A stretch of 64,000 nucleotides of DNA from Coffea arabica (lineage: Eukaryota; Streptophyta; Magnoliopsida; Gentianales; Rubiaceae). The DNA lies in NCBI RefSeq assembly GCF_036785885.1, contig NC_092312.1, positions 21,160,001-21,224,000 on the forward strand, in the 5' to 3' direction. Each line of letters begins with the position of its first letter. Position 1 is the stretch's first letter. The position numbers were made by a program, and so were the translations under genes. A model generated the notes under the pieces. That model had not been told where the DNA came from. It did not search any database and saw only the letters and a list, made by a program, of their open reading frames with translations. This document shows, one piece after another, positions 12,394 through 28,977 of this stretch.

Positions 12394-15300
12394 ATGAAGA
12401 GCAAAAGCAAAAAGGCTCCAAAAAAGGAAGATACTGCTGAAGATTGGTGCTTTGTGTGTAAAGATGGTGGAAATCTTTTTTTATGTGATCACAAGTGAGT
12501 ATTTCTTTCTTTTTTTTATTTTTTATTTTTTATTTTTGCCCCTTTCCACTTTCCTTGCTGGCTTTTTCATTCATTCAATTTTCAGCGAGGACTTTCTCTC
12601 GTATTTCTGGAGAGATTCTTCACTGAGCTCATCTTTGCATTTGGCTGCGTGACGTTGTAACGAGCGCATAATAATTAATAAATCGAAAAAAGTACATTCC
12701 GAGGAGCTCCACTTTAGTCAAAAGTTCCTCCTTTGGGTGTTTTGATTTTCCTTCTCACGGGAATAGGTTTATTTGCGTAACTCTTACTTTCGGTAAGAAA
12801 ATGTAAGAAAAGAAACCTTCTCAAGGGGTGGGTCAACAGGATAGGGTTCGTGGGGGGTCTTTATCCTCTAGCAGAGGCGGCTCACTGGGCTTGCCCCTGT
12901 GGGGGTTTCCAATCCCACATCGGAGGGTTGGGGGGAATGGGTTGGGTAGATAAGTCTTTGTGAGGACCTCAAGAGTTCCGGCTTTTGAAGTTTCTCAGGG
13001 GAATAGGTTTATTTGCGTAACTCTTACTTTCGGTAAGAAAAAAAAGGGTGTTTTGATTTTCCTTTCTTTCGTTTTCTGTGGGCACTTTTGTCATTTCAGA
13101 GATCTAAATGGCTGAGCGATGAGGAAATAATGGATTGCTCTCTCTCTCTCTCTATCTCCGTCTAGCTGTTTTGCTTTGATAGAAAATCCTGAATAGTGTA
13201 CCATCATTATTATGATCTTTGACTGGATTCCCCAACAAAACTTCATTCAAGCTATGCACAAGGAAGAGTAATTTTATGATAGCAACCAATTTTGGCCCGT
13301 ACAAAACTGAATAACACAGGACTCTTTTCTTGTCTTTATTAGATTCTAAACTGGCGATCGGAAGAAAGTTGCGGTTTAATTTGTTGCGTTCTTTCGATTT
13401 TCGAGGTCCTTTTATTTTTGTTTTAATCTTCTTGGTGTAAGTTGAGAGAAATCTGATTTTTGTATAAAGATTTGGCAAGGCACATGCTGCAACTCGTGAG
13501 TTTCTTGAATCAACAATGTTGTATCTGTAGCCAAGTGCTGACACCTTTGGTAGCTTGTTAGGGGCAGTATCTGGCAATCTGCGGCTTAGTAGGTGCTCTT
13601 TTATGAGGGGAATCAAAAGGTCCACTTCAGCATTCCTGGTTTTGTAGTAAATTTCTGGTATTTGTGGTCCTGACGAATTAAAGGTCATTTGACTCTTAAA
13701 CCATGAAAAGAAGTTAGAATACTCGAATGTTTTTTGAAGTTGTTTTGGAAATTATCACATGATGCTGCTGACGTTATTTCTTCCTCAAATTTTGTATTGT
13801 CTGGTGTATTTTGTTTGGTGGTGCAGAAATTTTCTAGGTTGTGGGAGTAATTTTCCTGTTACTGCCATTATGATGTTATTGTAGATCTGCCTTTTGCGCT
13901 TCTTCTATGTGAACCTTTTGAGGAGTAAAAAATCAGAGATTATATGTTTTACCTCAAGTTGCAAGATTTTCATGAAGTATATGACAATATTGTTGTCATC
14001 ATTAACATTGTCATTATTTATTATTATTATTGTTCTCAGGCAGTGCCCAAAAGCTTATCATTCTCATTGTGTTGAGAAGAATGAATCTTTTATGACAAGC
14101 GAAGAATGCTGGAATTGCAGTAAGCCCCTCAAAAGCTTTCCTTCCTTAGCCTTTTCATTTCCGTGTCCAATTCTTCAATGTCTTGGTCATTTGTTTGTCC
14201 TTATTTTCTATATATTCTTCATTTTCCTTATCTAGTACTCCAAGTGTCAAGCACGTTGTAGCATGTTGCATAATTGAGCAAACCATCAATTTTTCTGTAC
14301 TAGGTAGTTGGTATTATTTATGTATATTAACACCTTCGAGTGCAGACTGTTATATTGGTTGGTCTTTTTTTTTTTCCGATGTGCTCAAATGTCTTATTCC
14401 ATTTTTTTGCTGTTCCATCGTTATTCTTTGAGACTTTTGGTTTGTTTGCATGGGATTGTTCTGTTTGAAAAAGCAAGAAGAAACAAGTATTGAATGCAAA
14501 ATAAAGGTGAAACCCGCTGCTAAAAGCACCAAAAAGAGGAAGATACGATCCTTACCTTTTTCTGTTCTTTTTTGTGTTGTTGAGAGGGCGAGGTGTGGTT
14601 GTTTGCATAGATTAGACTAGTAAAGCAGAGTAACTGCACTGGTTTATAAGTCATGGATCTTAACGGTGTCAGAGTGCTCAAATAGGTTTTTGTTTATGTC
14701 CTTCAATTTTTCTTTTCACTCAGTTAGCTCCTTAGTTTATCTTATTTTGCTTTACTCTTATCTAGTGCATACGTCATGGCAACAAATAAAAAGTTATGCA
14801 ATATTCCTGTTTCAGATTGGCATTCTTGCTTCATGTGTGGGAGAAAAGCTCATTTTCATTGCTACTGTTGTCCAAATGCTCTATGTCGCTTCTGCATTAG
14901 TGCTGCCGAGTTTTGCCGTGTTAGAGGGATGAATGGCTTCTGCAATAGTTGTTTAAAGCTTGCAATACTGATAGAAGAAAACATGGATGTTGACTCTGAT
15001 GGGGTATGATTAATACAGATTTGTAATGTTGGTTTTCAAATGTCATTTTATGCTCTTGAACATTCAGTTGGTACATATCTGACCTGCTCTCAGAATATTA
15101 ATGGATTAAGAAAGCTTGCTCTGGTGCAGTAAATTAGCTTAAAACAGTTACGAGACACTGTATTGTGAATAAATTGCGACTTTAGATCAATTACCAGGCA
15201 AAATTGGATGTGAAAATGAGTTACGTGAGAAAGTTATTAGATAATAGATTGTTATATCATTTCATCCGATGATTGAAAATTATAATTGACATGTCAATGG

Positions 15301-18300
15301 AAAGCATTCTTCATCCCATATCATTTCATATGACTAGTTATACAAGATTTCAGAAATTTGTGATAGGATGCATGACAAAAACCAGATTTGAGCAGGAGCT
15401 CATTCATAAGATCTATTTATCTATTTCTTTATCATGATAAATCTGAAACAAGCAAGATCTAGCTATCTATTTCTGCATCATGATAAATCGGAAACAAGTT
15501 GAAGATTAACAACATTTTCCTGAAGCATATTGGTTCAAATGGTTCATCCTTTTGGCAACCTAAATTGGCTCTTTGCAATAATCTTCCTCAGCATTTATGT
15601 ATAAATACCTTTTCATTTATGTTGGAGTACATCTGCATTGTAGTCTAATTATATTTAATCCTTGATATATCTCGAGTTATATCCCGGTATCAAAATCATA
15701 TTTTGCTACTCAAGTTTGATTTTAAACCAACCTGAATGCATATACTGAACTTTTATTTATTCTCTTTTACAGAGAAGAGATTGTGACCCTGTCTTAGAAC
15801 ACATCATATTGGCTTAATTGTGCATGTTAGAAATGCAGCGATGTGTAGCTTAATAATTAACGTTGGTGGATTATTTCACTGCAGGACAGATTAATAGATC
15901 AAGGACTCGATACCGAAATTGTTACTTTTTCCTTCGAAAGGTTTATATGCTCTGGCCTTACTGGACTGGATAGCATAATCGATTTGCTCTCTTGTGTGGG
16001 AGGATGTGCATGTTTGTGAATTGAGTAATTTAAGTTTCTGTGAAGCCAATAAACTATTACCCCAAGCAACCCCCTCAGAAAAAAAAAAGAAGAAGAAGAA
16101 AGTTCCTTGTGTATATTAAGAAGGACAAACTTGATGCTTATGTTTATATTTTTAACTTGATGTCAAATAAATGATCAGATTTGCTTTACTTAGATGTGTC
16201 ACCAATCCAGATATGAAGCACATGCATAGTCGATAGATAGGTTACATCTGTTGCTTGTATGGAACTTACACATGGAATTTCTTGTTTGGTAAATTGGTCT
16301 TGCATTCAATTCTACAAGCATCATCTATATTTGGGTTTGTTTTTGCACATGCTAGACTTCATCGTATTCATTCTATACATCTGGTTCATCATTATAGCTA
16401 ATTGTATTGTTATTCATGTTGTCCATTAGGGTAGCCAATAACGTACAAACTGAAATCTTTTGTTACCTCCGTTTTTTTCAATGTATGGAGGGGAGGGACT
16501 TCTCAGTTTTATTTCAATTAATTTTTTTGGTTTATTTTATTTATGACAAAGAGCTTTTTTTCCCAGGAGAAAGTGGACTTTAAAGATCGGGAAACTTATG
16601 AAGGTCTTTTTATGGAATATTACAAGATTGTTCAGGAAAAAGAAAGATTTAAGATAGATGATATCCGTGCTGCTACAGACAGAAAAAAGACGGGAAACTC
16701 TGATTCAGATGAATTTGGCAATGATGAAGTAGTGTCTGAATATGAAAAAGAAGAAGACCTTAAACAACATCTTAGCAAGAAGGCATTCAAGGGGAAGCTA
16801 TCCTGGAAACACAAGAATGCTAGATCGAAAATTATGCAGTTCACTGGTTGGGGATCAACTTCTCTCATTCAGTTTCTGCAATCAATTGGTAAAGATACCA
16901 CTGAAAAACTATCTGAACGTACTGTGGAGGCAATAATTCATAGATATATTGCAGAGCATAAGCTCTTTCAGCCAGAGAAGAAGAGAAAGATAATATGCGA
17001 CGAGAACTTGCGAAGTATTTTTGGTCGGAAATTTGTTAACAAGAATAGAATTTATGAGTTGTTGGAAGCTCATTATTCTGATAATCTGGAGGATTCAGAA
17101 GAGGATGAATGGGAGGAAGAGGAGATGTATTTTGCAGTATACAAGGATAAAGATGCCTCTGTGGCTTGTGGAACAAGAAGAGAGTTAAAAAAGAAGAGAG
17201 AGTCCCAAAAACATGATACAGAATTAGAAAAGGAGAAAGAGTCTGAAAAACATGGTACACTACTCACCGCACCACAAAGTCATTTTGCATCTATTACAGC
17301 TGAAAATATTAAGCTTGTATACTTGAGGAAGAGCTTGGTAATAGAACTATTAAAACAACCCAAGTCATTCAAAGATAAGGTGACAGGAAGCATTATACGG
17401 GTCAAGTCCGATCCAGATGATTATCGCTGGACAAAAAATTCTCATCAGCTTGTGCAAGTTACAGGTCTAGATGCAATCTGCTATTTTGATATTCTGCATT
17501 AAACTTTGCTTTCTGATTATCAAGTGCTATTGGATGTTTCTACCTGAATATTAATCAATTACTTGATCATGAAAAGCACATCTATTAAGCAATTTTTAGA
17601 TAATTTGCATCCTTTTAAGTGTAAGATTGTTTTGTCAGCAGGTAATTGATGTTACATTAAGCCTGAGGCAACAAAAAAGTTCTTACGCTACTGTGATTGT
17701 TTTGGATTTCATCCATTCAAAATAATGGTTTGTGACAGTTTGCAGCAGAATATGATTTGATTATTGTGTGAATTTTAGTCTTTGGAACTGTAATTTAGAT
17801 ATGAACTCTAGACATATGAAAAACAGAGACAGTTAACAGATTAGTGCTACAATAAAGTTATGTGGTAAAAGGGAAGATTAGGCACTGAAGTCGACTGTGT
17901 GGGTGAAGTTTATGAAACCGCTCATGAGAACATATAATTGCATGAGAAGTTAAAGTGCTTTTGTTAAACTTTTTACAATGCATGGTAGAAAAAGTTCATA
18001 TTTAGTGATCTACATGTCTGACAAACTAAAAAGCTAACATCTGACACAACATTTTCAGCTTCCACAAACTATTGACATCTTGTGCCTGTATATTGCTTTC
18101 TGGATAGGTATTTATTTGTCTTTAACTTGTATCTTAGGAATAAAGGAAACTCCAACTGGAGAAAACAATAACGACATGATCCTTTGCGGGTCAAATATGC
18201 CACTAGGGATTCAAATCAGTATGCTATCAGATGGTGACTTCTCACAGGTAACCTACATGCTATTATTGATCTGATCCATGTCTTTAGCTTGGATGTTTTC

Positions 18301-21300
18301 AGTAATTTGATCCTGCTCTTTTTCTGCTATAACTGTGTGATATGATTTTTTTAGTTGCTGCAATAATGTAAGGAGCAGCTTTTAACTGTACTTGATTGAA
18401 GTTCCTACATGTAGTTATAAATGAGCAACACTGTTAGATTGAGATGACAGGAAGAGATATCACTGATCTCATAAATTGCAATGCACAGGAGGATGCTTGA
18501 TTCCTTGAAACTGAGCTCCAAGTTCTTGATCCACATTTTCTGGAGTCAATACCTCTAATATCATCTTTTGTGTTGGTTAGACTGTCGAACTGATGTGGGA
18601 AGGTTAATTTTCTTTCTAATGCCTCCTAAAGTATCGACTAAAGGAAAAACTAACTTTCCCTGTATCTAAATGCACGAACTTTCTTGATTTTGCCTTTATT
18701 ACTGCTATTTCCAGCACTAGTCATACAAGTGGTATCAATAGAGCTCAACAGAGTCTAGGATGTGCTCTTAAAAGCTTGTGAATTTTTCTATAGATACAGA
18801 CTGCAATAAAAAAATCTGTATGCACATTCATGACTAAGTTCAAATTCTTTTCTAAATGAAGTCCGTTTTGTTATGCCTTGCTACACTGATAGCGTTAGCA
18901 TGACATAGCAGACAGCACTAGTTTTCTACAACTTAATGTATTAAAGATTTTGAGAAAATGCTTGGGGAAGTTGTGAGGTGGGAAAGCACTTTTTTATCTC
19001 TCAGAATGATGTATAATTGATCTATCATGTGAAACTATCTTGACTTGTCATGCTTTGATTATAAGGAGCCCTTTACTTATTTTTCAAGGCAGAATTGGTA
19101 CCCCTGTTTGGTTATCCTAAAACTTGAGAGGAGAGAAGCTGAAAAAGGAGGTATTATTCTTGTTGACAAATGAGATAAGTCATTAACCATTAACATCCTT
19201 GTTGACAAATGAAAAAATGAGATGGTTGTTATGGGTTAACATAATATTCTAAGCTGGAAAGATCTGCCAGTGCTAATATGTTGCAGGGCTTGGTTAACCT
19301 AAAACTTGAGAGGAGAGAAGCTGAAAAAGGAGGTATTATTCTTGCATGAATAGGGTCTTCAGGAAGTGAGATAAGTCATTAACCTTTAATATCCTTGTTG
19401 ACAACATGAAAAAATGAGATGGTTGTTATGGGTTAACATAATATTCTAAGCTGGAAAGATCTGCCAGTGCTAATATGTTGCAGGGCTTTTTGCTTTTAAG
19501 GATGCATCAATTCTATGTATTCTTCATTACTCATTATGTTAAATAAGAAGGAAAACTTCAAGTTTGCATACTTATGCTTCAAAACAATGCTTATTAAGTA
19601 ATTAGTTAACCTCGATATGTCCTTTTCTAAAGAAGTTTAAATTTGAAGAATTTTTTTACAATTTTTTGCCTCTATCTGTTGTAGGAAGAATGTAATGATT
19701 TGAGGCAAAAAGTGAAAGATGGCCTCGTTCAGAAGCTTAGTGTAGTAAGTAATTGACACGTCCTTAATTCCTTTTTGTGTAGTTTTCCAAGTATATTAAA
19801 AAGTTACTCATTCTTTTGCATGTGACTGTGGTATGGTGGGTTGGCATCTTATATAAGAAACTTCTTGACTAGTTATAAGTAGGAATTATTTTTTTACTCT
19901 ACTTTTCATTTTCTAGTAATATCACTAGTATCTTCTAAAGATATAATGCAAAATGTTTAAAATTGCTGAACATGGTTCTACTTAAGAGAGTAAATTTAGG
20001 CTAATCTTTTGAATTGTCAACAGATTCTTTCTTATCTTTCTTACATAAATCCTTTTCAACTTTCACAATGGACCCAAGTACTTAACATTCTCCGTCCAAC
20101 CTTCTCCTTCCAACCTTCTACTTAGATTGATAGCCTTTATATTTTTTGCATCTATATCCATATTTATGTTTCTCATTTTCTACCAAATAATTGGCAAAAA
20201 CCTTTTTTACCAATAAAAGAATAACTCAATCAAGAAGAATCACAACAGAGATTTCTTACATTTGGAGGATTCTTGACCTCGTTTACTACAGGTGGAGCTT
20301 CAAGAGAAGGCCAGAAGTCTGCATGAGGATATAGCAAACCATGTATGCATTTCATTTTCTGCTTTTCGTGTATTTCTTTGCAAATGCATCACATCTCTGA
20401 TACACATTTTATTTTGAAGAAGCTTTTTTTTTTTTTTTTTTTTGTAATTTAATGGGTTCTTACTTATTGTAAGTATTATCTAACAATTGTGTGACGCTTT
20501 CCACCACAGGTCCCAGTATGTTGATGTACGAATACATATATTTCATATATTTACAGCGATGAAAAAATAAAAAATTGTATACTTATTTATACACACACAC
20601 ACACACACACTCACAGCGAATAGGCTAAATAAAACCATAACGAGGAAGAAGCCATTTGATGACATTATTGGCAGTTATTTTTGTTCCAACATGTATTATG
20701 ATCAGGTCTGAATGTTTGTTTATCACCCAGTCCTGTCAAGATGTAGTTTGTTCTTCTTTCGTTAACCGTTTTTCCGTTATCTATTCATCCATGCCTTCCG
20801 AGCCAATGTCAGGAAATTTCTAGAGAGCTGAAGATCCTGGATGGACGCATCATTCAAGCAATTGAGAAAGGACGGAGACAAGAATATCCTTACACTGAAC
20901 TTACTTAAGTGAAGCAGGGATTAAGTAGCTTTGTAATTTTTCATGATTGCAGTTCTAGTCTTAGTAAATGAAGTTGTTATAAAGGAACTGGAAGGGAAAA
21001 CTTCTTGTCGCTTTTCTCAACCAATGTGATAAATGTGCTTCAAACTTAATGGTCCTTAATTAATTGATGATGCAAGATAAAATGTTTCTTTTTTTTTCTA
21101 TTGATCTCCAGCTGTCATTCTCTTATCCTTCTGTTTTTTGGACATGTAAAGGGTATAGGGTCACTAGATTTTACTCTCTGCATTATCTGTAATAGTGTCA
21201 AGCAATTTGTTCTTGACTGAGCTTTGCAATGTTGGTGTTTCTTGTGCTTGCCCTTATAAACTGACTCATTTGCCTCAACAATTAAGTACATACAAGTTTA

Positions 21301-23515
21301 ATCTTGTATGCTGTGATATGTGGCATTATAATTTTGCCATTTCAATCTACAATGAGCTGATCAAGTGAATGTAGGATAATGTGCCTTAACTTAGGAGGTA
21401 TCTCTACATTATTCGAGCACATGGAAAGAAGGAACCAGTTGCAAACACCGTCAGAACGGTTACGCTTACTAGAATATCATCATGCTGTGATTCCTGAGGA
21501 GCTTGAACCTGTTATAGAAGAAATTGGGCATGATCAAAAAGGGGCTGAAATGTCACATGAATCAACATTTTCAATAAATCTCAATTGGAAGTGGGGAGGC
21601 AATTGTACATCAAGTAAGATTGATCTTGATTTCAGACATTAAGAAGCTCTAGAGATATTTCTGTTGCGTCTTTAACTTCTCTCCTTTAATTTTAACATTT
21701 GGAGCATCATTAGTCTCATGTCATGGCGTGGTAGTATTCACATTCAATAAATTTATCTAGAATCCTGGTGGTTTTCTTGCTTTTCTGAGGGAATACATGT
21801 TTTTCTTTTGCAGCCAATGCATTTTCAAGTCAATAAGAACACCAACATGTTCTCTCTCCTTGAACAAAATTCTTGTGCTTATGTTTTGAGCTTTTCTTCT
21901 TATATAACTGCATATAATCATGATCTTATGTGTGTTTGCATGTCAAACATCCATCTGCGTTTGCCTTGTGGCAGTTCTCACGAACCTTGATAATGAAGAA
22001 CTGCTATAAAGCCCGTCTGTTTTGATCTTCTTTACATCTCACCACTTTTTGCAATCCCTGTATCTTTTCTCTGTGGTTCTATTATTGGTTAGGCTATTTT
22101 TCTATTTTTCTTTTCAACAAAGCTGACCCTTTTTTAACATAGATAGTTTTGGTCTTTCTGTTGCTCTATGACGCTTCTACCTAGCATTGTATGCCTTTGG
22201 ATTTCACCTTTCTTTGGGCAAGTTTAATTAATACGTTCAGCCTTTTTTTTTTTTTTAAATTTAACTGCATCATGCGCAGTTAAGAAATTTTTCTTATTTC
22301 AGTTTCAGGATGATTTGAGTATATTAATGTTACATCTTGTTGGATGCAGGAGAAAACAAATTTCATGGTCCTCTTTCATGTCAATATGAAAAGCAGAATC
22401 TTCCTGAAGTATCTCTCAGTGTATCACCTAATCAATCCGCCTCAAAAGAAAAAGACAACAAAATGATGGCATCAGCACTCGAAGTATCCCCAGAGCCGTC
22501 GCTTGCTTGTGAAGATCAATGTAACATGATGCTCCAAGCAGATGCTGAGTTATGTAGTTCTTCTGTAGAAGTCACGAAGCAGAATCTTCCGGAAGAAAAT
22601 AACAAAGCATTTGAAGTATCCCCAGGGCTGTCACTTGCTTCTGAAGATCAACGTAATGGGATGCTCCAAACAGATGCTGAGTTATGTATTTTGACTGTAG
22701 AAGTCACGAAGCAAAATCTTCCGGGAGAAAATAACAAAGCATTTGAAGTATCCCCAGGGTTGTCACTTGCTTCTGAAGATCAATGTAATGGGATGCTCCA
22801 AACAGATGCTGAATTATGTATTTCGACTGTAGAAGTCACGAAGCAGAATCTTCCTGAAGTTTCTCTCAGCATATCACCTAATCAGTCTGCCCCGAAAGAA
22901 GAAAATAACAAAGCACTTGAAGTATCCCCAGAGCCATCGCTTGCTTCCGAAGATCAATGTAATGTGGTGCTCCAAACAGATGCTGAGTTATGCAGTTCTC
23001 CTGTGGAAGTCGCGATGCAGAATCTTCCTCGCGCATCTCTCAGCATATCACCTCGGCAGCCTGCCTCAAAAGAAAAAAATAACAAAACAGTAGCATCAGC
23101 ACATGAAGTATCCCCAAGGCCGTCGGATACTTGTGAAGATGGACAGAATGCAATGCTTCAAGTTGAAACAGATGCTGAGTTAGATGGTTCTGCTGTAGAA
23201 GTCACGAAGCAGAATCAAGGGATGGATGCTGAAGGAGCCACATCCAAGAAGACTGTCATTGTGGTGAGTAGTGATGATGAAAGTACTTGGAGTTATGAAC
23301 CAAGAAAGCAGCATCTCGAGGACCCATATAGCAGAGAATGGCTTATTTTAGGTCCAAATGGTGAAAGGAACGAGGAAAAGTATTCACTTTCATTGCTAAA
23401 GCGTTGGAGCGATGCAAGTTCTTATGCATTGAAGTACAAGGCTTGGAAAGAAAATGGAAGTGAAGAACTTGCCATCCCGTTGGCTGATGCTATTAAGAAA
23501 GCGTTTATGAGTTGA
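12394..23515 (+). CDS. PHD-SWIB/MDM2-Plus3-GYF protein (AT5G08430/NERD-like chromatin factor)
   Basis: Predicted nuclear chromatin/RNA-silencing type protein. Ten exons chain in phase: 12394-12494, 14040-14119, 14816-15003, 16567-17464, 18138-18247, 19685-19744, 20292-20342, 20813-20883, 21408-21613, 22350-23515; 976 residues. Order: PHD finger ([16 protein letters not shown], then [10 protein letters not shown]) with a second Cys/His-rich part ([18 protein letters not shown]) at about 12-120; SWIB domain around [16 protein letters not shown] at about 220-300; Plus3 domain from about 375 to 470; a linker with [16 protein letters not shown]; a low-complexity tandem repeat; and a degenerate GYF-like C-terminus (REWLILGP to LLKRWSD). 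The ATG at 12394 is chosen over 12283 because [11 protein letters not shown] fits the family and 12283 lies before a likely leader acceptor. The intron 20884-21407 has AT-AC borders; all others are GT-AG. Relatives take part in RNA-directed DNA methylation or chromatin control, so this role is inference. Confidence 0.88.
12754..13045 (+). mobile_element. SINE-like retroposon with 48-bp terminal direct repeats
   Basis: It lies in intron 1 of the PHD-SWIB gene. It is flanked by a perfect 19-bp direct duplication GGGTGTTTTGATTTTCCTT at 12735-12753 and 13046-13064, and ends in a run of A, as expected for LINE-driven retroposition. Inside are a tRNA-like A box (GGCGGCTCACTGGGC, near 12887) and B box (GGTTTCCAATCCC, near 12905). 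The unusual part is a 48-bp block starting CTCACGGGAATAGG that forms the first 48 bp (12754-12801) and recurs with one mismatch at the 3' end (12994-13041). The motif TCCCACATCGG next to the B box resembles the plant snRNA upstream element, possibly by chance. Family name unknown. Confidence 0.75.
13136..13155 (+). repeat. (TC)n microsatellite
   Basis: A short CT dinucleotide run in intron 1 of the PHD-SWIB gene, downstream of the SINE-like insertion. Confidence 0.8.
13152..13688 (-). other. Antisense 178-codon ORF in intron 1 of the PHD-SWIB gene
   Basis: An open minus-strand frame of 178 codons with a Lys/Arg-rich middle ([17 protein letters not shown]). I recognise no family and see no promoter or splice context. 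It is long for an AT-rich intron, but I would not annotate it as a gene without transcript support. Confidence 0.15.
19109..19487 (+). repeat. Tandem duplication (about 182 and 197 bp) in an intron
   Basis: Copy 1 (19109-19289) and copy 2 (19291-19487) both run from TGGTTAWCCTAAAACTTGAG to ATGTTGCAGGGCT. They are nearly identical except for a short insertion in copy 2 (GCATGAATAGGGTCTTCAGG). The duplication lies in the 18248-19684 intron of the PHD-SWIB gene. Each copy ends in a pyrimidine-poor TTGCAG that could act as a weak cryptic acceptor. Confidence 0.88.
20590..20610 (+). repeat. (AC)n microsatellite
   Basis: A run of about ten AC units in intron 7 of the PHD-SWIB gene. Confidence 0.85.
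20884..21407 (+). other. Predicted U12-type AT-AC intron
   Basis: The exon ends GACAAGA, and the intron starts with the exact U12 donor ATATCCTT (20884-20891). A CCTTAAC branch-site motif (21384-21390) lies about 18 nt before a terminal AC (21406-21407). Splicing here keeps phase 2 and joins KGRRQE to LFEHMERRN, matching the KGRRKEL segment of related Plus3 proteins. Reading on instead gives a stop after six codons, and no GT donor lies before that stop. Confidence 0.85.
22391..23214 (+). repeat. Coding tandem repeat, five units of 44-64 residues
   Basis: In the last exon of the PHD-SWIB gene, five units begin KQNLP or MQNLP and contain EVSP, SL, EDQ.N, DAEL and VEV(T/A). Units 2 (22577-22708) and 3 (22709-22840) are both exactly 132 bp and differ by only a few substitutions, which points to a recent in-frame duplication. 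Units 1, 4 and 5 carry an extra SLS(V/I)SPNQSA-type insert. The segment is acidic/Ser-rich and probably disordered. Confidence 0.9.
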
Positions 23516-24237
23516 TACAAGTTTGGTGAGCTTAGATGCCAAGAACCTTCTTCTGTCCTAGTTTTGAAATACAGAAATCCCTTGTATCTAAACTCAAATC
23601 ACTTTCTTCTACATATAAAGCATGAGACATGGTTTTGGTGTTAAAAAAAAAAAAAAATTTGTTAATCGTTATTTTTCAATTGGGATAATTTCAGAAACCT
23701 TTCTTGAAGTTTCTGATTATTGCAGTAGCTCTCCTCTAATTTGAAAAATGACACCTACCTCCTCTATTGTTAGCATTTCAGTAACAATATAGATTCAATA
23801 TGCTAAATTTGTACCCAAAAATCCTAAAATATCCTTTTGTTATTTAAAAGGGAGATAAACTCACTCATGAATTTCTTTCACGCTATAACTATTACAAATG
23901 ACATAACTATCACTTTAACGAATTTAATAAATCATTTCAACTTAATCTTTATATTCTCACAATTTTGATGGTCCCTTTTTGTTACCCCAGAGCTTCATAT
24001 GTAAGCCAACTATGACAATTAAAATTTGCAATCAACATAATTTTTAGCCTCAATTTTTTTTTTGGGTCTAAATTCAACGTTTGAATTAAACAACATCACT
24101 ATCTAGATTCAATCCAAATAGTTGCAACATTGTTGACGCTAAAATAATTTAACACGCCAAGAATACCAGCACAGAGCACCCAAAAGCAACACTAGAGACC
24201 ATGTCCCATGTCTCTAGATAAATCTTTGGATTGCTGG
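23516..24237. other. Intergenic: PHD-SWIB gene 3' end and MITE fragment
   Basis: Holds the 3' UTR, a poly-A run at 23643-23655 and, from about 23676, one end of a GGGATAATTTCAGAAACCT-type element. That end is related to the MITEs at 42-46 kb, but no matching opposite end was seen. There is no gene. Confidence 0.45.
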
Positions 24238-24812
24238 TGAAGAGGTGATTTTCGACCCGCAGGAGTGAGTCACCTCAACTGGAGGAATGTCTTTACCTTG
24301 GGCAACTCTCTTGGACGAAGTCACCTGCTTGGATAAGAAAAGGGGTTGGATCCCCCGGTATAACTCCGAAACTTAAGTCAGTTCGGATATAGAGAAGTAA
24401 GAAAGTAATGAGTGGAGATAGTGTCCTACCAGAAATTGGTCATCCCCATTTCAGTAGAAGTGTCGTGTATTTATAGGGGACTGATAGGAGAGAGGAGATG
24501 TTTGCACGGGTCCCTAAAGATCTGAGATAGTCAGTGGATCAGGTGGACTTGACCGGTCTCTATGAAGAGACGTGATGAGACATTCTGTCCGATTCAGGCG
24601 GCGGGTCAGAGCAGCCTTTGCTCAAGTGTCAAAGATCACATCTCCCCTTTTTGTAGTTGTCATTCAATGTCCACCTCGGTGTCACGACCCCACATCGTAG
24701 CCGAGGTGGTAAATGGGCCGCGATCGCCTTCCGGGATGATGGCCGGTGTGGCACTTCAGGAAATGGTGGGGGACTAGGCCTCGGGCGATCCGAGCCTAAA
24801 TGGCCCTCCTCA
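24238..24812 (-). repeat. 3' LTR of the retrotransposon
   Basis: 575 bp, pairing base for base with 33147-33721 at a constant offset of 8909. On the minus strand it starts TGAGGAGGGCC and ends in CA. It carries TATAAATA (24468-24475, minus). A purine-rich tract on the minus strand (AGCTTGGGGAGCTTAG), the likely polypurine primer, abuts it at about 24813-24828. Confidence 0.92.
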
Positions 24813-25034
24813 CTAAGCTCCCCAAGCTTTGGGAAGGACGAGATGGGTATTCGCCGAGGTCGTTACTTCCCGAAGCTGAGAAGCGTATAAGACACGGAAC
24901 ACGGACACGTCATGACCGCATAGATGGGACTGAGTGAGAACTGAAGGGACGGCAGTCAGCTGTGTGGGCAGACGAACAGTCCTCCCATTAATGAGGAGAG
25001 AGGGTGCCGTCTTTTGGGTTTCACCCTGGTGGCC

Positions 25035-25042
25035 TATAAATA
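25035..25042 (+). promoter_or_regulatory. TATA box for the antisense gene inside the retrotransposon
   Basis: TATAAATA lies on the plus strand about 165 bp before the ATG at 25207, followed by a C/T-rich leader. It lies outside the LTR and points against the direction of the element's own transcription. Confidence 0.6.
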
Positions 25043-25206
25043 GGGGTCTCTTTTAACCGTTTTACTCTTCACCAAAAATCGGGAATCACCCCAGAACTCT
25101 GTTTCTTTCTCTTTTCACTTCAGCAACCTTTCTAAACCACATCTACTTCAGCAACTTCTTCAAGTCGCAGATTCTAAGTAAGTTCACTTCTTCCCCCTTT
25201 GATACA

Positions 25207-27393
25207 ATGGCTAGAACAGCTCGCACGCACAAAGAGACAGTGAGGCCCGACTTTACCGACCCCTCCGAGGAAAGAACGGCGTCTGACGTCGGAGAAAAGG
25301 GTGCAGAGGCATCTCACCAAGCCGGGGCGTCTCACCGAGCCATAACTCCAGAAGAGCAGGCCGAGGAGATCGAAGTCGATCCCGAGATCCTGTATAATGA
25401 TGACCTCGGGATGAGATCCCTAGGGACGAGGGTGTTCAAGAACCATCCACTCCTCCGAACGTGGCGACGCTCAACTATGGTCAGATGCCGACCTTCAGCA
25501 GTGCTGTGGGACAAGCCGCCGTCGCCGAGGTGATCCGCAGATATCCCTGGAGGAAGGACTACAGCATCTATGTACCGCAGCCACATCAGTCCGCCACCCT
25601 GCCATCAAATGATAGGGTGGCCATCTATGTGGACCAACTAGAGGTCGGGCTCAGAGTGCCCATGACGAGGTTTTTTCGGGATTGCCTAAGGTATTGGGGG
25701 GTGAGAATCACTCAGCTCACCCCTAATGCCATTTGGGTCCTTGTCGGCTTCTAGCTACTCTGCCGACATCAGGAGATAGAACCCACAGTCAACCTCTTTC
25801 GTCGCTGTTACTCACTCAAAAACAGCGGAAGTGAAAAGGGGTGGTTCTACGTCGGGAATAAAGTTCCGAAGCTGGTGGTCGATGCTCCGAGCTCAATAAA
25901 GGAGTGGAAGAGGAACTTCATTTTCGTCCCGGCCCAGGACTTCCCCAGGGGATTTTGGTGGAGACCTCCCACCTCGGTTAAAGAGGTGTCCCCGGGTAAG
26001 CTGGAAGAACGCAACTTCATGAAGCTAACGGGGTCGGGCCTCAAGATTAACTGCTGGGATTTTTCCGAAGTGGTTCTAGTAGAAGGCGGAATCAGCCGAG
26101 CCTTGATCAGTTCGGATCACCCCGTCCTCCTCTCTACTAGGCTTCACTGACCTTGTACTTTTCCATTTCCCTCTTTTAGTTTGTCCTTCTTGAATTCTAA
26201 CTGACTCTGTTTTGCTCCTTACAGTGACGAAAGTTTCCGACCTGATCACCACGGGAGCGTCCGGGGTAAACAAGAGGCCATCCAAATGCAAAGACACGGC
26301 CGAACCGTCCACCCGGCCGAAAAAGAAGAAGACCTCGGCCCAAATCACTACGGCCACGGCGAGCCGAAGATCTCCCGTGATAATCACAGGGGAGGGTTCC
26401 CGCACTTCGGCCATCCCAGTCGGGGTGCCTATCAGGGGTGTAACCATAGCTTCTCCACCCCGGGGCAAAGGAACAACTGCGTTCCCCGAAATCCCCGTGA
26501 CGGGGTCCTCGCTTTTTAACCTCCACAATGTGTCTTCAAAAGAGGCCGGAGAGAACAAAAGGCACTCCGGCGCGCAATAGTGTCCGGAGTGGGAACTCAA
26601 TGTGAACGACCGCTGCAAGAATCCCTTGGTTGCTCAAGAACTCCTGGTCCACTCAGTTCTGCCCAGGGATAACACTTACGCCAGGAAGCTCACTCCAGGC
26701 GAACTGATGCAGAGCGCCTCCGTCTCCTGGACCTCCACCACGGCATTCCTGGCCGAACTGACTCAACGCTATACTAGGCTGGTCGAAACCTATCAGCCTT
26801 CGTCTGAGTTTGAGAAGAAGGTCTCCGAGCTGGAGGAAAAACTCAAGGCGACCGAGCAGGAACGCGATAAGGCCGAGACGGCGCGAGAACAGGCCGAGGC
26901 TACCAAGAATTCCTTGATGACAGCCCTGGAAGAAGAGAAAAATAGGCGGGCCTAGGAGGAACAATCAAATAAGGTGGCCATTGAGAAAGCGGGGACCTCG
27001 GCACTGGAGGCCTTCCGGAAGTCAGAGGGTTTCATCAATGACTTGGGCGAGCTCACGTTGCCGAGTTTCATGTTCGGGTACACCTCTACAGTCCATGATG
27101 TGGCTCCTTTCCTCACTCCGGAACAGCTGGAGTCCCTTCACAACAAGGATAATTTCAACGAGGATGCCAAAGAATTGTTCGACCGCATGGCCGAAGGCAT
27201 CCGGACTGGAAGGGACTTGGCCGAGGTGAAGGTAGAGTTCAACAAATGGCTGTCTGAATTTAACCTGGACGGTGTCGAACTCCATGGCGAAGACGACGAT
27301 AGTGATGGCGGACATGACGACGGCGCTGATGTCGGAGGTGGTGGAGCCGAGGCTACCGGGGACAACCAGGGAGCCGGGGTAGGGGGTGCTTAG
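25207..27393 (+). pseudogene. Antisense ORF (aORF) of the Tat retrotransposon, gypsy-type transposon domain
   Basis: Plus-strand coding remnant opposite to gag-pol. Part 1 starts MARTARTHKE (25207). It changes frame near 25450-25470 into YPWRKDYSIYVPQ and VAIYVDQLEVGLRVP, which matches the Pfam family called putative gypsy-type transposon (PF04195). It then hits an in-frame stop at 25752 and continues through GWFYVGNKVPKL and PRGFWWRPP to 26150. A short intron-like gap ending in CTTACAG (26224) leads to a Lys/Arg-rich, nuclear-signal-like region, a coiled coil (KKVSELEEKLKATEQERDK, about 26810-26950), and a C-terminal helical part ending in an acidic/Gly tail. Further stops lie at 26578 and 26953. 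Function is unknown even in intact relatives. Confidence 0.75.
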
Positions 27394-27443
27394 GAGCACT
27401 CCCCTTTTGTAATAGGGGGCCGGCCTTTCTCTTTTTGCACTTC

Positions 27444-27449
27444 AATAAA
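27444..27449 (+). terminator. AATAAA poly(A) signal downstream of the aORF
   Basis: A consensus AATAAA on the plus strand about 50 bp after the aORF stop at 27393, in a T-rich context. Together with the TATA box at 25035 it outlines a self-contained antisense transcription unit. Confidence 0.55.
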
Positions 27450-27609
27450 ATTAACTTTTTGTTTTCGCATATTTTTGCCTTCTTTTTGATCGAATTGAAT
27501 TCAACTTTTCTTTTGAATACTGCTTTGTCCCCTTATCTTTCACTTGAAGAAAATAAACTGAGATTTGAAACAAGTGAGAAATAAACTGAAATTTGAGAAC
27601 ACGTACCCT

Positions 27610-28617
27610 TTAAGGGTAATACAACTTAAGGTTTTCAGCATGCCAAATCCGGGGCACTCGAGAGCCATCTTGGTAAGCTAATTTACAATATCCATTTTGG
27701 CTGGACTCAACAACACGGTAAGGTCCTTCCCACTTGGGGGCTAGCTTACCCTGAGGTTCAGCTCGACTAACTGAGTTCTTCCGGAGAACAAGGTCTCCCG
27801 GATTGAACCGTAAGTGCTTGACCCGAGCATTGTAGTAGCCAGTTAGGATATTTTTGTAAATAGCTACTTTGGCCGCGGTCATGTCGCGCTTCTCTTTGGC
27901 GAGGTCGAGGTCGACTCGCCGTTCTTCTTCATTGACTTCGGCTGCATATGCGGCCATTCGTGGGCTCGGGATAATGAATTCGGCTAGGACGACAGTCTCG
28001 GACCCATAGGTTAGGGAAAATGGGGTCTCCTGAGTTGCTGATCTCAGCGTGGTTCGGTAAGACCACAGCACACTAGGGAGCTCTTCCATCCACGACGATC
28101 CAGCCCAGTGTAGCCTGGTCTTGAGTCCATGGAGGAGAGTTCGGTTGAAATTTTCAGCTTGTCCGTTGGCTTGAGGGTGTCCAACCGAAGTGAAATGCTG
28201 CTTAATCCTCAAATTTTCACACCACGATTTGGAAGGATTATCTGCGAACTGCCTGCCATTATCAGAGATGACCACCCGGAGCAGGCCGAAGCGACAAACC
28301 ACGTTCTTCCAAAAGAATTTCTGAACAGCAGTCCCGGTAATGCTTCTCAGGGGCTCGGCCTCAACCCATTTGGTGAAGTAGTCCACTGCTACCACCACGT
28401 AAGCATAGTTGCCTGGAGCTCTGGGAAAGGGGCCAATTATGTCAGTTCCCCATTGCTCAAACGACCATGGCGAGGTGATAGGGATCATTAAATTGGTCGG
28501 CTGGTGGTGCTCAAGAGCGTGATGCTGACAGGAAGGGCAGCAAAGGACTATGACCTGGGCATCCATCCTCATGGTGGGCCAGAAGTACCCGAGCAACAAA
28601 ACCTTTTTTACGAGCAT
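27610..28617 (-). pseudogene. Retrotransposon integrase domain (3' end of pol)
   Basis: 335 open codons on the minus strand. The C-terminal side of the zinc-binding region (CPSCQHH) is followed by the catalytic core, with Asp in WGTDIIGPFP, Asp in VVISDNG and Glu in NGQAENFNR, and by a C-terminal GPYRVV-type chromodomain-free end. The core residues are present. The 5' side is cut off from the rest of pol by stops between 28618 and 28977, so it could not be made as part of one polyprotein. Confidence 0.88.
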
Positions 28618-28977
28618 CCTGTAGCCGACGTGGGCACCGCAGAGCCCCTTATGGATGTTTTGGAGGATCCTTTCACCTTATTTGGGCGTTATACATCGCA
28701 ACCATGGGCCGAGGTACGACCTCTTATACAATAGATCTTGCCGGAGAGCGTACCTAGCTGCTTTATGTTGTAGCTTTCTCGCCTCAGCTCGGTCCTCGGG
28801 TAGCTCTCCCCTGCTAAGAAATCAAATCAGAGGTCCCATCCAGGTGTCCCCGGGATAGATGGGGTATACGACCTCTCCTTCGTACCCCGGCTCGGCTAGG
28901 ACCTCTACGAGAACCGTCTTATTCAGGTCGGCAAAAGAAGTAGAAGCGAGCCGGGAAAGAGCATCAGCCCTCCGGTT

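Follow-up and report, generated by a model that had tools for sequence, protein, structure and literature searches.

In minor splicing U11 pairs with the donor and U12 with the branch motif, and U6atac replaces U11 at the donor. For U12 introns of the AT-AC class the consensus is ATATCCTT, TCCTTAAC, AC (PMC2831892). The first-pass annotation of the DNA studied here, made from the letters alone, described AT-AC introns as a very small minority in plants. This is correct for introns as a whole, with 66 AT-AC pairs (0.05%) in an A. thaliana gene set (PMC5716242), but it does not hold among U12 introns, where the AT-AC share ranges from 22% (rice) through 23% (soybean) to 26% (A. thaliana), maize being lower at 13% (PMC7367187, Table 2).

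The A. thaliana protein ZMP (AT5G63700) interacts with Pol IV and carries PHD, SWIB and Plus-3 domains; for its family a four-domain ancestor including GYF was proposed (PMC9699677). The C-terminal GYF, being ancestral and lost in some ZMP-like members, is optional. Another ZMP-like protein, NERD, is linked to AGO2 and 21-nt siRNAs (PMC9699677). Our literature search found nothing on an AT-AC intron in the ZMP/NERD-like family; orthologous Arabidopsis introns may well be in catalogues of the U12DB type. Here we describe a predicted AT-AC intron in a coffee gene of this family. Judged from sequence, it is one more member of an established intron class, and what it adds is conservation in all five intron-bearing loci examined.

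Results and discussion

Structure of the gene and its copy on C4

The window, that is the whole stretch of 64,000 nucleotides that was analysed, is C3:21160001-21224000 of a 1.198-Gb assembly with 131 contigs. At 12394-23515 on the + strand it contains a ZMP/NERD-like gene of the PHD-SWIB-Plus-3 type with 10 exons, set by eye from splice sites and reading frame. Eight of its introns are GT-AG, the only AT-AC one is intron 8, and the spliced frame is open over 976 aa. The features, with their basis, are as follows.

12394..12494, +, exon 1, coding part (start ATG; PHD); exon model, Pfam
14040..14119, +, exon 2 (PHD); exon model, Pfam
14816..15003, +, exon 3; exon model
16567..17464, +, exon 4 (SWIB, first part of Plus-3); exon model, Pfam
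18138..18247, +, exon 5 (rest of Plus-3); exon model, Pfam
19685..19744, +, exon 6; exon model
20292..20342, +, exon 7; exon model
20813..20883, +, exon 8, ending KGRRQ-GA before the AT-AC intron; exon model, C4 copy identical at 71/71
20884..21407, +, predicted U12-type AT-AC intron (intron 8), 524 nt, phase 2; motifs, frame, copies
20884..20891, +, 5' splice site ATATCCTT, 8/8 to the U12 AT-AC consensus of PMC2831892; identical in six copies (five loci, one with two alleles) and in the C4 copy
21382..21390, +, branch-site motif TGCCTTAAC, 8/9 to TTCCTTRAC, putative branch A at 21389; motif match
21406..21407, +, AC 3' splice site, 18 nt past the branch A; motif, frame
21408..21613, +, exon 9, starting A-TTA-TTC (L F E H M E R R); exon model, C4 copy identical at 204/206
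22350..23515, +, exon 10 with a 132-nt repeat array, a degenerate GYF-like C-terminus and the stop; exon model, repeat search, PARA alignment

All three domains of the ZMP-like family (PHD, SWIB/MDM2 and Plus-3) were recognized by Pfam in this single protein, with 24.7 bits for PHD_NSD (cut-off 23.9), 45.1 for SWIB (25) and 51.5 for Plus-3 (27). The label PHD-SWIB-Plus3-GYF given in the first-pass annotation stands for these three, but Pfam called no GYF in the protein. Its C-terminal 56 aa align, with 37.5% identity and E 2.6e-6, to a segment of the paralogous locus PARA in which Pfam recognizes GYF at 52.1 bits (cut-off 25.7), and on this alignment the GYF of the window gene is a degenerate one.

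On C4 lies a further copy of the gene (L003/L004), which probably represents the other haplotype and has an intact ORF and the same donor ATATCCTT, CCTTAAC and AC. Intron 8 is identical in the two copies at 513/523 positions, and the 90 bases around the acceptor contain one difference, located upstream of the branch motif. The alignment of intron 1 with the C4 copy has 352 gap columns; by eye, this intron contains at 12758-13040 a direct repeat of ~40 nt (GGAATAGGTTTATTTGCG...) with copies ~240 nt apart. For intron 5 there are 182 gap columns, which points to a tandem duplication in one of the two, and one stretch at 19117-19480 is seen by eye to be present twice in tandem. Exon 10 carries at 22474-23086 the in-frame 132-nt array (2.9 copies at 90%, with diverged neighbours besides); its alignment with the C4 copy has 132 gap columns with the frame kept, and therefore the number of repeat units seems to differ between the copies. 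On the 3' side of the gene, long ORFs at 24200-28700 make up an apparent LTR retrotransposon, within which an integrase-like frame lies at 27610-28677 on the - strand (both by eye).

Signals of the AT-AC intron

Exon 8 (KGRRQ-GA) is directly followed by ATATCCTTACAC, and the unspliced frame ends at TAA 20906. Just as the first-pass annotation had it, intron 8 opens with the exact U12 octamer (8/8 to RTATCCTT), no GT dinucleotide occurs between the start of exon 8 at 20813 and the in-frame stop at 20906, and a CCTTAAC core, placed there about 18 nt before a terminal AC, is located at 21384-21390 with its A exactly 18 nt from the intron end. After this AC exon 9 reads A-TTA-TTC-GAG, which restores the frame.

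Possible GC donors and alternative acceptors were enumerated around the intron. Among 16 AG or AC ends in 21340-21450 only AC 21406-21407 follows the branch A at a distance of 9-27 nt, and it makes an in-frame junction with exon 8. Two AGs, 5 and 8 nt past the branch A, would shift the frame, and the five other in-frame ends are either upstream of the branch (two) or at least 39 nt beyond it (three). Pyrimidines occupy 11/20 positions before the AC versus 12-16/20 at the other eight acceptors, which is a weak contrast. At 18 nt, the spacing between branch A and acceptor exceeds the reported optimum of 11-13 nt (PMC3584512), and it is also long in two of the paralogs described below (17 nt in PARA and 15 nt in C14x).

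The motifs by themselves carry little weight, because a strict combination of donor, branch site and terminus arises in 48 of 60 dinucleotide-shuffled windows, and motif statistics alone were therefore dropped as proof. The donor octamer occurs 6 times in the window versus 6.08 in the shuffles, and the branch heptamer 13 times versus 15.74. A rough chance of the motifs falling into the slots set by the reading frame (47 nt for the donor, 13 nt for the branch) is 8.5e-6 from window rates, a value that is indicative only, because the slots were chosen after the sequence had been seen. The decisive evidence for the intron, as far as sequence goes, is comparative and comes from the family loci, not from the motifs.

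The same intron in paralogous loci

A whole-genome protein search with the stretch around the junction as query gave 15 matches, and a genome-wide search for the Plus-3 family gave 16. Besides the two copies of the window gene and a C3/C4 locus at ~11.4-11.5 Mb, four further loci with introns and three decayed copies without them were registered. The locus at ~11.4-11.5 Mb, perhaps RTF1-like, has a strong single-frame Plus-3 match (110.5 bits) and was left out of the intron comparison. The comparison covered PARA in its two alleles (C3:26.45 Mb; C4:26.87 Mb), whereas C14x (C14:42.56 Mb), C13n (C13:7.27 Mb) and C3m (C3:15.85 Mb) were each represented by a single allele. In viral contigs and in genome contigs 2 and 71 pattern matches, respectively, gave no confirmed relative, and PDB contained no relative of the region, with two matches at E 0.3 and 0.46.

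All five intron-bearing loci, the window gene included, have an AT-AC intron at the homologous position, in phase 2, with the exact ATATCCTT, a U12-like branch site and a terminal AC (5/5). In each of the four paralogs the homologue of exon 8 ends with GA or CA immediately before this octamer (4/4), the branch motif fits TTCCTTRAC in 7-9 of 9 positions and the branch A is 10-17 nt from the intron end (10-18 nt across all compared copies). The introns of the paralogs are 509-2461 nt long, and their spliced junctions read GWRRE-MFEHLERK, GWRRE-LFELRNRR, GHKKQ-LRECIEKL and GRRKE-LRECVEKL. The last of them belongs to C3m and bears out the earlier statement that splicing of the window gene restores KGRRQE-L, similar to KGRRKEL of related proteins. 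Without splicing the frame closes 6-20 codons past the junction codon in 6/6 copies. Intron interiors cannot be aligned between loci (best E 0.033), the two PARA alleles being 99.1% identical, and therefore the splice signals outlasted the rest of the intron. These alleles have different variants of the branch motif at the homologous intron end, TTACTTAAC on C4 (L030/L031) and TTCCTTAAC on C3.

Local alignment scores at the junction are 167 for the window gene against PARA, 117 against C14x, 62 against C13n and 70 against C3m. The last two are most similar to each other, with 40/57 identical and a score of 223, and both may resemble NERD (AT2G16485). The Plus-3 match of C14x holds a stop codon, and therefore this locus may be damaged. 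The labels ZMP-like and NERD-like are provisional, being based in part on the domain order and on PMC9699677. With the intron shared by both family groups, parsimony suggests that it was already AT-AC in their common ancestor and has been kept since, the simplest reading being that it predates the split of the groups. It thus looks like an old feature of the family, not new in kind.

The three intronless copies (C5a, C5b and C6a; L032-L037 on C5 and C6) read through exons 7-8-9 in a single frame with both introns absent, and in C6a this reading, AKMLHEDITKH-ELQKELARLQNHINHYNEKEWLLE-FNECLDNTEEL, is uninterrupted. Their appearance is that of a spliced family transcript that was retroposed, and the three may originate from one event. 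Their identity to PARA is 50% over 56 aa versus 34-35% to the window gene, and none of the 15 genome protein matches is an intronless copy closer to the latter. At the nucleotide level C5b matches spliced PARA in 82/108 positions; the match spans the exon 7-8 junction and lacks the last 7 nt up to the exon 8-9 junction, so that the case for fusion at the AT-AC site is made by the protein alignment. A second short match of C5b to PARA (39/53) is found at about the spacing expected of fused exons. C5b is located downstream of Copia-like reading frames (weak matches, identified by eye).

Proposed splicing and its alternatives

Taken together, the sequence, the C4 copy and the four paralogous loci bear out the U12-type AT-AC intron that had been proposed at 20884..21407. 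With a probability of about 0.96 this segment is a genuine U12-type AT-AC intron, belonging to a plant chromatin gene of the ZMP/NERD-like kind and presumably removed by the minor spliceosome. From the established biology of the latter one can assume that U11 snRNA would pair with ATATCCTT and U12 snRNA with CCTTAAC, leaving the branch A bulged, that U6atac would then take the place of U11 at the donor, and that exons 8 and 9 would be joined as GA-A in codon 520 to encode the 976-aa protein. If intron 8 were retained, translation would stop at 527 aa, close to the truncation at residue about 525 predicted by the first-pass annotation; such a product would keep PHD, SWIB and Plus-3 and lose the rest of the C-terminus. 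Among snRNAs of the minor spliceosome, U12 gave two matches in the genome (95.6 and 95.3 bits) and U6atac ten above the cut-off (best 90.6 bits). For U4atac no match came from the 49 candidates scored out of 95161, nor from any of 14 control genomes, which is not read as absence.

The major spliceosome might instead skip exon 8, joining the donor of exon 7 (20343) to AG 21416-21417 or AG 21437-21438 with products of 949 or 942 aa. Both junctions keep the frame (two of ten AG acceptors tried), but such splicing would delete a stretch that has counterparts in the four paralogs and in the three intronless copies, no clear pyrimidine tract is visible by eye ahead of either acceptor, and the conserved ATATCCTT would be left unexplained, so that we regard this route as very improbable. 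Slightly less credit still is given to the assumption that the gene normally ends past exon 8, the downstream ORFs being decayed or part of another transcript. The stop at 20906, 7 codons past the junction codon, and the presence of PHD, SWIB and Plus-3 in the retained form agree with it. Against it, exons 9 and 10 are still open in the C4 copy, homologs of exon 9 and of the C-terminus are found at PARA in the same order as in the window gene, and the acceptor side is kept in 4/4 paralogs.

The frequency of the strict motif combination in shuffled windows would even allow the motifs to be coincidental, with the exons joined by some other non-canonical event. The paralogs argue strongly against this, as the exact octamer is found at the homologous codon and in the same phase in 5/5 loci with diverged interiors, and of all the readings considered this one appears the least credible, to the point of being negligible.

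Possible role and consequences

If 20884-21407 is removed as a U12-type intron, it might persist in the role of a regulatory switch: whenever minor splicing at this one site was slow or failed, early-stop proteins or decay-prone mRNAs would result. Regulated retention of this kind is speculative, and we think it improbable; if true, it would couple the activity of the minor spliceosome to RNA-directed DNA methylation in all members of the family at once. The conserved intron also suggests that a mutated minor spliceosome could disturb several relatives of ZMP and NERD, both DNA-methylation factors, at the same time. On the practical side, ab initio gene prediction with no provision for AT-AC junctions would break each of the family members compared here at the same codon, and the AT-AC subtype, kept in both family groups, offers a clean set for studies of minor-intron retention.

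Comparison with known systems

Like plant U12 AT-AC introns already described (PMC2831892, PMC7367187), intron 8 of the window gene combines ATATCCTT, CCTTAAC and AC and is the lone one among GT-AG introns. It departs from this class in its 18-nt branch-to-acceptor spacing, longer than the optimal 11-13 nt (PMC3584512), and the AT-AC subtype is retained here in 5/5 loci of one family. With ZMP the window protein has in common the order PHD, SWIB, Plus-3; in contrast to ZMP, it retains a long C-terminus with repeats and a degenerate GYF. Local scores place the window gene nearer to PARA and C14x than to C13n and C3m. The latter two, which may resemble NERD, carry the same AT-AC intron as the window gene.
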